Virus record (IMG/VR): IMGVR_UViG_3300010430_000109
Location: 1-44,962 of that record
From: a virus
DNA: 44,962 bases
Direction: 5' to 3' (one strand)
The notes beneath the pieces are model-generated. The model searched no databases and had not been told where the DNA came from. It saw only the letters and a program-made list of their open reading frames with translations. Shown one piece after another: positions 1 through 11,825 of this stretch. The stretch's first letter is position 1; the number at the start of each line of letters is the position of its first letter. A program made the translations under genes and the position numbers.

Positions 1-1
1 A

Positions 2-244
2 GCCTACCATTACAATGATAACGGTGTTGATCCATATTTTACTGTCGATTGGGGCCGAAGTATTAATAACTATACACCAGTTAGTCCAATGTCTGTCACT
101 GACATACTTATTGATATTGCACCAAGTGTAATTCTGGCAACCCCTCTTGTTAACGTTAAATTTTTCATCGACATACGGTTGAAAGGTGATTCAACGTGTA
201 CGTTAACTCTAAAACACATTAGATACGCAGTAACAGGGCCATAA
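2..244 (+). CDS. hypothetical protein, C-terminal part (cut by window edge)
   Basis: Only the last 80 codons lie in the window; the frame is open from base 2 to a TAA at 242-244. The visible part is rich in likely beta strands, with alternating hydrophobic residues (for example FTVDWGR and VKFFIDIRLKG), and has no motif I recognise. Its stop is one base before the ATG of the next gene, so the two are probably cotranscribed. The composition would suit a phage structural or fibre-like protein, but that is only inference, because the N-terminal part is missing. Confidence 0.6.
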   Translation, partial: AYHYNDNGVDPYFTVDWGRSINNYTPVSPMSVTDILIDIAPSVILATPLVNVKFFIDIRLKGDSTCTLTLKHIRYAVTGP

Positions 245-245
245 T

Positions 246-608
246 ATGAAACTAGTTCCAGGAATCAAACGAGGCTACGCAGATAGTTTTGAACGTGCGT
301 TAGAAATAATCACTCATGCTAATTTAATCCAAGATCATCATAATGCTGATCCGTCAGACGCTAAAAGCGAACCATGCGGCGTTTGGCCCATGGGTGTGCA
401 AATGGAAGCTGATAGCGAATACATCGCTACTAACTTAATTGAGCTGAAAGCATTATGTGAGCAAGGAATCGCAGCATCACCAAATGGAAAGGTGGTTATC
501 ATGGAAGTTGAGTGCGAGGTATGTGGACAAGATGCTGACGGAAATGATGTAAAAGTTTGCTCCGAAGTAATAGCTCAACGAATCGACTGCGCGGGTAATT
601 GTTGTTGA
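246..608 (+). CDS. hypothetical protein with Cys-rich C-terminus
   Basis: A 120-residue soluble protein with no signal peptide or membrane segment. The last third carries seven cysteines: C90 and C93 in a CEVC pair, C105, C115, and C119-C120 at the very end, with another at C71. Such spacing could bind zinc or iron or form disulfides, but no named zinc-ribbon pattern is complete. It starts one base after the stop of the partial gene before it. Its own stop codon overlaps the left half of the operator at 605-620, so the transcription unit seems to end here and a new one begins. Function unknown. Confidence 0.7.
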   Translation: MKLVPGIKRGYADSFERALEIITHANLIQDHHNADPSDAKSEPCGVWPMGVQMEADSEYIATNLIELKALCEQGIAASPNGKVVIMEVECEVCGQDADGNDVKVCSEVIAQRIDCAGNCC

Positions 609-664: not shown

Positions 665-904
665 ATGTTGGAAATCTCACAAGATCTTGTTTTCGCATCT
701 AGTCAGACGAAAAATTCTGTCAGGGTTCCCAAGTTAGATAATAATTGGGAATTATTATCAGATGTTTTATGGATGTATCTAGCTGAACGCGGTGTCAATC
801 CTGATATTGTTGAAGATTTTGACGAGTGTGTTGTCAACATGCAGCAATATGGAGAGAAAGACAATACAGTTACATTTTATCATTTTTCCATCAAAGGGGT
901 TTAA
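665..904 (+). CDS. hypothetical small protein upstream of the GG peptides
   Basis: A 79-residue acidic protein. A longer reading from GTG at 656 is possible, but AAAAGGTGA at 651-659 is a good ribosome binding site for the ATG at 665, so I chose 665. No signal peptide, membrane helix or known motif is seen; the middle (DVLWMYLAERGVNPDIVEDF) looks helical. It is the first gene after operator site 1, and 89 bp separate it from the double-glycine peptides, with no terminator seen between. It could be an immunity or accessory partner of those peptides, but nothing in its sequence shows that. Confidence 0.65.
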   Translation: MLEISQDLVFASSQTKNSVRVPKLDNNWELLSDVLWMYLAERGVNPDIVEDFDECVVNMQQYGEKDNTVTFYHFSIKGV

Positions 905-993: not shown

Positions 994-1095
994 ATGCGTG
1001 ATTTAAATGATTATGAATTAGAAGCAGTATCTGGTGGTGATTTACATATCCCAGATGACATCGATCTTCCTCCCCCACCAAGCGGTGGTGAATAA
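994..1095 (+). CDS. double-glycine leader peptide 1
   Basis: A 33-residue peptide with a textbook double-glycine leader, MRDLNDYELEAVSGG, followed by an 18-residue acidic, proline-rich core (starts DLHIPDD, then four prolines, ends SGGE). Leaders of this form (L-x-x-x-E-L/I-x-x-V-S/T-GG) direct microcins, class II bacteriocins and signalling peptides to ABC exporters with a C39 peptidase domain, which cut after GG. GGAG at 981-984 is the ribosome binding site. Its TAA overlaps the ATG of peptide 2. The second GG near the C-terminus is probably not a cleavage site. No exporter is visible in the window, so a host exporter would be needed. Confidence 0.85.
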   Translation: MRDLNDYELEAVSGGDLHIPDDIDLPPPPSGGE

Positions 1096-1196
1096 TGATT
1101 GAACTTAATGAGTATGAAGTAGAGGAAGTTTCTGGCGGCGTGATTGCAGCGCCGGTCATAATCGCTGGCGTATGTTGTGGTGAAGATCATGATTGA
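1095..1196 (+). CDS. double-glycine leader peptide 2
   Basis: A 33-residue peptide whose leader, MIELNEYEVEEVSGG, is a close relative of the one before it, followed by an 18-residue core that is hydrophobic at first (VIAAPVIIAGVCCG) and ends EDHD. The vicinal cysteines could form a disulfide or bind metal. The hydrophobic core resembles the membrane-active part of small class II bacteriocins more than the cores of peptides 1 and 3. The ATG overlaps the stop of peptide 1 (TAATG), and the 3' end overlaps the start of peptide 3 by 8 bp, so translation is coupled. Confidence 0.85.
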   Translation: MIELNEYEVEEVSGGVIAAPVIIAGVCCGEDHD

Positions 1197-1275
1197 GTTA
1201 AACGAGTATGAAGTAGAAGAAGTTTCAGGCGGAGACGGTGAGAGCAACATTAACCAGCCAATTCCACATCCGTAA
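1189..1275 (+). CDS. double-glycine leader peptide 3
   Basis: A 28-residue peptide. Its 15-residue leader is identical in protein sequence to that of peptide 2 (MIELNEYEVEEVSGG) though the codons differ in several places, so it is an older duplication or is held by selection on the protein. The core is only 13 residues, DGESNINQPIPHP, polar and proline-containing, unlike a membrane-active bacteriocin and closer in size to a signalling peptide. The gene starts inside the end of peptide 2 in another frame. It is the last gene before the terminator near 1359. Confidence 0.85.
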   Translation: MIELNEYEVEEVSGGDGESNINQPIPHP

Positions 1276-1860: not shown

Positions 1861-1991
1861 GTATAATTGACGACGATGATCACTATCTTCATCAAATCGA
1901 GTGGGATATTGATGACGAACTTGAACCTCTCCCAGAACCAGATGATTATGATGGTGAAACTTGGGACGCATTCAGAGGACCAGAATCATGA
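1857..1991 (+). CDS. small highly acidic protein
   Basis: A 44-residue peptide with 18 Asp or Glu and almost no basic residues (DDDD near the start, DIDDELEPLPEPDD in the middle). It overlaps its neighbours by ATGA at both ends, so it is part of a tightly coupled chain from 1588 to 3800. Such acidic phage peptides are often DNA mimics or inhibitors of host proteins, but there is no fold signature here and this is only a possibility. Confidence 0.65.
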   Translation: MSIIDDDDHYLHQIEWDIDDELEPLPEPDDYDGETWDAFRGPES

Positions 1992-2704
1992 TCATTACAG
2001 CCATATTAATATATTTATTCATTGTGTTGATGTTTTATGTGTTTCAACGAAAACTGTTGTTTCGACCGACTGCGGATGGTTACACACATATAGACTTTGG
2101 CAAAGGATTGCATGGTAAGGTGTTGAACCCGGACTATGAAATTGACGCAATTATTTACTTTGGTGGGAACAATGAGCAGATCCTCGACAACTTCGAGAGT
2201 GTGTTCCCCGACCACAGTGTTTACCTTATACCTTACCGGGGATATAGCGGCAACCCTGGTAAACCGACTGAAGCGGGACTATTTGAGGATGCTGAGTACA
2301 TCTACGATTTGGTTTCTCGTGATCATCAACGGAACGTCACCGTCATTGGTCGCAGCCTGGGTTCTGGTGTTGCTGCACACATTGCATCGGTCAAGCCGGT
2401 TCATCGATTGGTCTTGATAACACCGTATGACAGTATCGAACGAGTGGCGTTCGATCATTATCCTTTCATGCCGATGTCGTTGATAGTCCGTGACAAATTT
2501 CGTTCGTATGAGAAAGCACCGGCAATTGTGGCACCAACTATGATAATTATTGCTTGTTGGGACCAAACGATTAAATACGGACGTGTGAACAGCCTGATGA
2601 AAAGTTTCAACACTGGTGTTATTCAGTCATTGTTGTATTGTGATTGCAATCACACTGACATTTTAGAACATATTCAATACGATGACGTGAGGAAATTTTT
2701 ATGA
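1988..2704 (+). CDS. membrane-anchored alpha/beta hydrolase
   Basis: A 238-residue protein. Residues 2-19 form an N-terminal membrane helix followed by QRKLLFRP, as in BEM46/YfhR-like (ABHD13-type) hydrolases. The catalytic triad can be read: nucleophile S123 in GRSLGSG, acid D192 in ACWDQT, base H222 in CNHTD. The oxyanion strand is YFGGNNEQ near residue 57, and IPYRGYSGNPGKP matches the family's PYRGYG loop. The enzyme should sit on the inner membrane and cut an ester, thioester or amide; the substrate is unknown. ATG 1988, overlapping the previous stop, is preferred to upstream starts. The enzyme is an unusual cargo for a phage and lies two short genes after the peptide cluster. Confidence 0.85.
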   Translation: MIITAILIYLFIVLMFYVFQRKLLFRPTADGYTHIDFGKGLHGKVLNPDYEIDAIIYFGGNNEQILDNFESVFPDHSVYLIPYRGYSGNPGKPTEAGLFEDAEYIYDLVSRDHQRNVTVIGRSLGSGVAAHIASVKPVHRLVLITPYDSIERVAFDHYPFMPMSLIVRDKFRSYEKAPAIVAPTMIIIACWDQTIKYGRVNSLMKSFNTGVIQSLLYCDCNHTDILEHIQYDDVRKFL

Positions 2705-10584: not shown

Positions 10585-11825
10585 GCGCATTAGTAGAAGA
10601 GTTCGTTGATGTCGATTGCGCTGAACCTTTAGAGTTTCTATGGGAGAAAAAACGGTATAAAATCATATATGGTGGTCGTGCTGGTGTTAAATCCTGGGGT
10701 GTTGCTCAAGAACTCATAATACGAGCATATGAAGGTAAAGTCAGAATTCTTTGCGGCCGTGAAATCCAAAAATCAATTAAAAACTCAGTAATCAAGCTTC
10801 TTAGCGACACAATAGAACGTCTTGGTCTAACTGACTACTTCGATGTTCAACGTAATGCTATCTATTGCCCATCGACAGGATCAGAGTTCATGTTCGAAGG
10901 CTTGCACATGAATGTAGCGTCAATCAAATCAATCGAATCTGTGGACATCGTATGGATAGAAGAGGCTGAGAACATCAGTGAGAACACCTGGGATACATTG
11001 ATCCCGACTATTCGTAAGGCTGGTTCAGAGATTTGGATTACGTTTAACCCCAGGCTTGCAACTGATCCAACGTATGAGCGATTTATCGCGCCTTACCTTG
11101 TCGACATTGATGAACATGGTTTTTATGAAGATGAAGACTTGTTTGTTCGAAAAACTAGTTACAAAGATAACCCATGGTTAACTGAAGAATCTCGAAAGGA
11201 TATGGAGCGAGACAAGGCGAGAGATTACGACAAGTACCTTTGGATCTGGGAAGGTAATTGTCTCAAGCATACTGAAGCTAGAATATTTGCCAATTGGGAG
11301 ATTGAAGAGTTTGACACACCTGACAACGCTCAACTCATGTTTGGTGCTGACTGGGGATTCTCTCAAGATCCGACAACGCTCAATAGATTATTCTTTGATC
11401 ACGATAAACGTATATTGTACATTGATTATGAATCGAATCAGATTGGTTGTGAGTTGAACAATCTTCACATATTGTTTGATAAAGTACCAGGATCACGTAA
11501 ACATAGGATTCGAGCAGATAACGCGCGCCCTGAAACGATTAGTTACATGAATAAAACTGATGGGTTTGATATTGTTGGAGCCAAGAAAGGACCAGGTAGC
11601 ATTGAAGACGGTATCGAATTTCTGAAGAGTTATGATATCAAAGTCCATCCTCGTTGTAAGAATACAATATTTGAACTAACTAATTACGAGTACAAAGTAG
11701 ACAAGCAAACTGAAGAAGTGCTTGATATCATTGTAGATAAACACAATCATCACATGGATGCGATGCGTTATGCCACCGAACCATTGTGGCACGGTGGGCG
11801 AAATGTTAGAGTAATGGTTGTTTAA
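10581..11825 (+). CDS. terL: terminase large subunit
   Basis: A 414-residue packaging ATPase and nuclease of the PBSX/terminase_3 type. Walker A is GGRAGVKS (31-38), Walker B VDIVWIEEAE (121-130, catalytic Glu after the Asp-type strand), coupling motif TFNP (154-157). The C-terminal RNase H-like nuclease shows D257 in GADWGF, D313 in RADNARPE and D393 in HHMDAMRYA. It would cut concatemers and pump DNA into the prohead with the small subunit at 4162. The length is normal for the family. The neighbours (portal, minor head) support the call. Confidence 0.95.
   Translation: MSALVEEFVDVDCAEPLEFLWEKKRYKIIYGGRAGVKSWGVAQELIIRAYEGKVRILCGREIQKSIKNSVIKLLSDTIERLGLTDYFDVQRNAIYCPSTGSEFMFEGLHMNVASIKSIESVDIVWIEEAENISENTWDTLIPTIRKAGSEIWITFNPRLATDPTYERFIAPYLVDIDEHGFYEDEDLFVRKTSYKDNPWLTEESRKDMERDKARDYDKYLWIWEGNCLKHTEARIFANWEIEEFDTPDNAQLMFGADWGFSQDPTTLNRLFFDHDKRILYIDYESNQIGCELNNLHILFDKVPGSRKHRIRADNARPETISYMNKTDGFDIVGAKKGPGSIEDGIEFLKSYDIKVHPRCKNTIFELTNYEYKVDKQTEEVLDIIVDKHNHHMDAMRYATEPLWHGGRNVRVMVV

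Follow-up and report, generated by a model that had tools for sequence, protein, structure and literature searches.

What might a phage gain from genes whose products appear to be addressed to a bacterial exporter that the phage itself does not seem to encode? The question is raised by three short, overlapping open reading frames (ORFs) in a 44,962-bp stretch of viral DNA (the window), which is a complete IMG/VR virus record. The three predicted peptides share a double-glycine (GG) leader. Such peptides are a currency of bacterial export, and a phage with three of them and no exporter suggests that viruses could use or block the peptide secretion of their hosts during infection.

Three ORFs behind a common leader

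The original prediction was of three overlapping short genes with a common GG leader and unrelated cores of 18, 18 and 13 amino acids (aa), and ORFs that fit this description are present:

982–990, + strand: ribosome-binding site of peptide 1 (GGAGAAGTA region)
994–1095, + strand: GG-leader peptide 1, 33 aa; leader MRDLNDYELEAVSGG, core DLHIPDDIDLPPPPSGGE, net charge −5
1095–1196, + strand: GG-leader peptide 2, 33 aa; leader MIELNEYEVEEVSGG, core VIAAPVIIAGVCCGEDHD, net charge −3
1189–1275, + strand: GG-leader peptide 3, 28 aa; leader MIELNEYEVEEVSGG, core DGESNINQPIPHP, net charge −2

The overlaps amount to 1 nt between ORFs 1 and 2 and to 8 nt between ORFs 2 and 3. All leaders are 15 aa long; those of peptides 2 and 3 are identical at the protein level, and that of peptide 1 is nearly so. 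The likeness among the peptides ends exactly at the GG, behind which the acidic cores are mutually unrelated, one of them having a distinctive Cys-Cys. On the DNA level, the leaders form a 47-nt repeat with spacings of 101 and 94 nt.

Two scoring schemes single out the same three ORFs, in agreement with their proposed membership in the class of GG-leader precursors. A degenerate leader pattern has three matches in the window and none in 100 shuffles of it. We also built a leader matrix from 20 GG leaders found outside the window and scored all start codons in the window with it. The three ORFs scored 47.0, 47.0 and 44.9 bits, compared with 7.5 bits for the fourth-best of the 2,394 window starts and 11.7 bits for the highest-scoring start when other phage loci were scanned. 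Because the patterns that yielded most of the training leaders were modelled on the window leader, the matrix is not fully independent, and what counts is the size of this gap in scores.

The leaders of peptides 2 and 3 differ at seven nucleotides in six codons, and all seven differences are synonymous. When seven sites were substituted at random in simulations, the leader protein was retained in approximately 1 of 100,000 trials (P about 1e-5). The leader is therefore selected as a protein, and the copies within this genome are direct evidence of purifying selection on it. Disrupted leaders in close relatives had been named beforehand as a finding that would speak against the genes; no contrary finding of this kind emerged, and the copies agree in their leader. 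None of the close relatives has the locus, and the case for conservation rests on the within-genome copies.

Elsewhere in the window, an ORF at 2701–2859 has a start spaced like those of the leaders, but its product is basic and has no GG; its score of 5.6 bits makes the resemblance probably a coincidence.

The phage and the predicted operon

The phage location of the three ORFs is supported by the genes for terminase, portal, HK97-type capsid and tail sheath in the window, which also encodes a DNA polymerase, an exonuclease and a Gp2.5-like single-strand binding protein. A sister contig, IMGVR_UViG_3300010392_001043 (L013, L025 and L026), is 99.7–99.9 per cent identical to the window over positions 10686–44962, and its far end overlaps window positions 1–308 at 96 per cent. 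Overlap with both window ends points to a circularly permuted genome of about 57 kb. The additional 12 kb in the sister contig encode a helicase, a methyltransferase, a primase, a thymidylate synthase, a lysozyme and a GDSL lipase, and our search of the phage detected no phage integrase. Since this near-identical second contig stops at position 308, the three ORFs have been seen in a single assembly.

Relatives of the DNA polymerase and primase come mostly from phages of Gammaproteobacteria. A gammaproteobacterial host is only suspected, because these relatives, at less than 60 per cent identity, are too distant. The phage itself is probably marine, judging by the sample types. Phages with 40–77 per cent capsid identity contained no GG-leader ORF when scanned, and only a pentapeptide-repeat ORF and the terminase small subunit from the first 10 kb of the window had matches in them. 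With almost no ORF matched there, the first 10 kb is a variable accessory region. Searches of phages and plasmids with the three peptides (tblastn) gave no match, as expected for queries this short. Accessory genes that flank the peptide region encode a membrane-anchored alpha/beta hydrolase-like protein (window 1988–2704) and the GDSL lipase (L026 11100–12413).

The following elements bear on how the ORFs may be expressed:

605–634, + strand: predicted operator-promoter; palindrome TTGACAACTATGTCAA overlapping the −35, with TAACAT as the −10; 1 of 10 such sites in the window
665–904, + strand: small ORF of 79 aa (82 aa from GTG 656), probable first gene of the transcript that includes the three ORFs
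1329–1356, + strand: predicted intrinsic terminator; 12-bp stem followed by a T run
605, 1369, 4846, 5128, 5486, 7368, 8976, 10398, 35478 and 37731: TTGAC-N6-GTCAA sites in the window
6614, 10025 and 10516 of L026: TTGAC-N6-GTCAA sites in the sister contig, those listed

The three ORFs had been credited with an operator-promoter and a terminator of their own. A real-looking hairpin bears out the terminator, but the nearest of the repeated promoter sites is the one at 605, which stands 60 nt 5′ of the ORF at 665–904, and a scan of positions 905–993 revealed no further site. Given this arrangement, the three ORFs most likely lie at the far end of an operon headed by the ORF at 665–904, whose product had no family and no relative in our family and relative searches. 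TTGAC-N6-GTCAA palindromes that overlap a −35 number 10 in the window, each 53–83 nt before an ATG, and 6 in the sister contig; a scan of three more distant relatives gave no such site, and the reversed pattern had no match. These repeats would make up a phage-wide regulon under a putative regulator. The site at 1369 precedes the next operon, so that promoters of this type flank the operon of the three ORFs on both sides.

Possible export and roles

That the phage has no exporter had been predicted, and the wider search agrees: we found no C39 peptidase in the approximately 57 kb of the two overlapping same-species contigs or in the relatives, and family searches identified no transporter among the phage ORFs searched. 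A slightly relaxed leader pattern matched in 3 of 369 sampled genomes of Gammaproteobacteria. In one of these matches, MRELNVNEIKQVNGG heads an 85-aa peptide whose gene has that of an HlyD-family fusion protein on one side and that of a C39-ABC transporter on the other. The leader class of the phage peptides is thus of a kind found alongside C39 exporters, which many members of the suspected host class possess: 174 of the 369 genomes have C39 domains above the cut-off.

The closest described leaders are those of the cerein 7B and lactobin A type (TIGR03949 of NCBIfam), which are substrates of C39 peptidase-containing ABC transporters (PCATs). The phage peptides share with them the 15-aa length, L−12, E−8, a hydrophobic residue at −7, V−4 and the Gly-Gly, as well as the presence of unrelated cores behind a common leader; what sets them apart is that they are phage-encoded and that the searches of this phage yielded no C39 exporter. 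The TIGR03949 model matches peptide 2 with E = 3e-4 and 20.5 bits, against a cut-off of 21.5, and the other two peptides reach 13.3 and 12.5 bits.

AimP, the arbitrium peptide of Bacillus phages, is a pre-pro-peptide of the Sec type, linked to a receptor and a regulator. The proposed parallel with arbitrium holds as a loose analogy, in that both involve the idea of a phage-encoded secreted peptide, but it does not extend to a homologous arrangement, as the leaders here are of the GG and not the Sec type. Family searches, which contained no AimR-specific query, assigned none of the neighbouring ORFs searched to a receptor-like family. In size, the short phage cores resemble GG-peptide pheromones. 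That class of pheromones has been described (PMC7595303). The Gram-negative GG cargo in the literature that we compared is longer than the 13–18 aa of the phage cores.

Two of these Gram-negative systems also have several GG peptides, and in both the peptides have roles other than that of a toxin. EbfG1–4 of Synechococcus elongatus, which are encoded adjacently as the phage peptides are, have a biofilm role (PMC4997328), but they are chromosomal, have mature forms of 6–7 kDa and are served by a dedicated exporter, PteB, in the same genome. The nap island of Neisseria gonorrhoeae is a mobile island whose GG peptides have a role in autolysis, and a protein of an Inoviridae phage is reported to share 68.9 per cent identity with its NapC (PMC11798529); unlike the phage locus, the island has its own C39 peptidase and an outer-membrane channel, and its peptides are cationic.

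The reading that we favour, with somewhat more confidence than doubt, is that the three ORFs are duplicated and diversified GG precursors, expressed from a phage-regulated operon, which make use of a C39 exporter of the host and modulate a host peptide circuit. Because the phage seems to encode no exporter, the leaders would most likely be read by a PCAT of the host, which would cut after Gly15 and send out acidic peptides of 13–18 aa during infection or, alternatively, would be occupied by them. The most likely role would be to modulate a peptide-communication or bacteriocin circuit of the host by mimicking, or competing with, the GG peptides of the host itself. Conserved leaders combined with divergent cores imply that the selection common to the three copies is for recognition by the transporter; each core would then perform its own task or need little sequence. 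We infer the translation, export, cleavage and role of the peptides, as well as the host, from sequence. It counts against the favoured reading that the host, being placed only in a suspected class, may lack a PCAT, that no relative has the locus, that the three ORFs come from one assembly and that the cores fall short in length of the Gram-negative GG cargo compared. A more specific version, which we put forward tentatively, is that a phage with no detectable integrase hijacks the C39 exporter of its host for a diversified array of minimal GG peptides, which during infection would carry signals to neighbouring cells or reprogramme them. If true, this would be phage-to-population communication in a Gram-negative host by a bacteriocin-type route.

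Instead of carrying a message, the peptides could be decoys that saturate or jam the C39 exporter of the host, either blocking its export of bacteriocins or signals or freeing export capacity, in which case the cores would be largely filler. The combination of a strongly conserved leader with short, unrelated cores fits this role, as do the higher dose supplied by three copies and the fact that we found no immunity, receptor or exporter gene. However, one gene would suffice for a pure decoy, and the cores, one with its Cys-Cys, are not degenerate copies of each other; we hold this explanation to be possible, but not probable. Another of the roles originally proposed, that of antimicrobial peptides which resemble microcins or class II bacteriocins and kill bacteria competing with the infected host, fares worse. 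The phage leaders have the leader type and cleavage motif of class II microcins (V, H47, E492 and others) and bacteriocins, and microcin-type GG peptides of 65–104 aa with similar leaders occur in Gammaproteobacteria and in viral contigs. Yet class II microcins are 5–10 kDa in size and come with an immunity protein and a PCAT (PMC10233263; PMC9746304), whereas the phage cores are acidic, have 13–18 aa and are accompanied by no PCAT, fusion protein or recognised immunity gene, there being no immunity candidate with a family or relative. The benefit would also be weakened because an infected host soon dies. A microcin function is thus unlikely, and the peptides are more likely to be modulators or decoys.

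The two remaining explanations dispense with export altogether. Among the early peptides of phages are many small inhibitors that work inside the cell, and acidic peptides encoded by a phage without an exporter might likewise have an intracellular target, a host protein with no part in export; their likeness to GG leaders would then be due to convergence. Such convergence would have to account for a GG-leader match 37 bits above that of the next start and for a similarity among the copies that stops right at the GG, and we consider it improbable. Finally, the ORFs are short, and a 47-nt DNA repeat would yield similar starts even if the three were chance ORFs or a non-coding repeat. The purely synonymous differences between leaders 2 and 3, the coupled start and stop overlaps behind a ribosome-binding site and the absence of the leader pattern from the shuffled sequences leave very little room for this explanation.

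GG-leader peptides elsewhere

With the strict leader pattern, a single match was found in IMG/VR, which lies inside another protein and was rejected as due to chance, and 84,980 bacterial and archaeal species yielded few leader-like matches (a cyanobacterium, two Firmicutes and Silvimonas). A leader scan of IMG/VR recovered several GG peptides, some of them in phage-like contexts:

L205 9904–10092, L107 6905–7093 and L181 10890–11078, − strand: 62-aa GG-leader family on viral contigs; leader MIELNVSEVEQVSGG in L205
L185 1463–1645, − strand: single GG-leader protein of 60 aa in a RecE/RecT phage
L101 1005–1277, + strand: single GG-leader protein of 90 aa in a phage-like context

The 62-aa peptides have a leader nearly the same as that of the window peptides but, unlike them, are encoded by a single gene, not in tandem, and have a long hydrophobic core. 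This core is conserved between the contigs, the L205 copy adjoins RecT, and the family is absent from the annotated phages searched. The L185 and L101 genes sit in phage-like recombination or replication regions. No other tandem array with short cores was found in IMG/VR with a pattern that required a GGAG ribosome-binding site and narrow spacings, and none of the open-access full texts searched, whose coverage is incomplete, describes short GG peptides in tandem on a phage.

Two further candidates were rejected. The L100 family (a microcin-like 99-aa GG-leader protein at L100 1–300, − strand, and on 34 similar contigs) is probably bacterial flank at a site of integration and not a phage gene, as it is found at prophage edges in isolate genomes and has no match in the phage collection. 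The L236 leader was dropped because it is internal to a longer ORF. A 44–48-aa protein that begins with MRDLKEELLKIKGGDFPKWYASL (L043 2763–2803, − strand, and about 20 similar viral contigs) has no GG leader and is a widespread, uncharacterised small phage protein.
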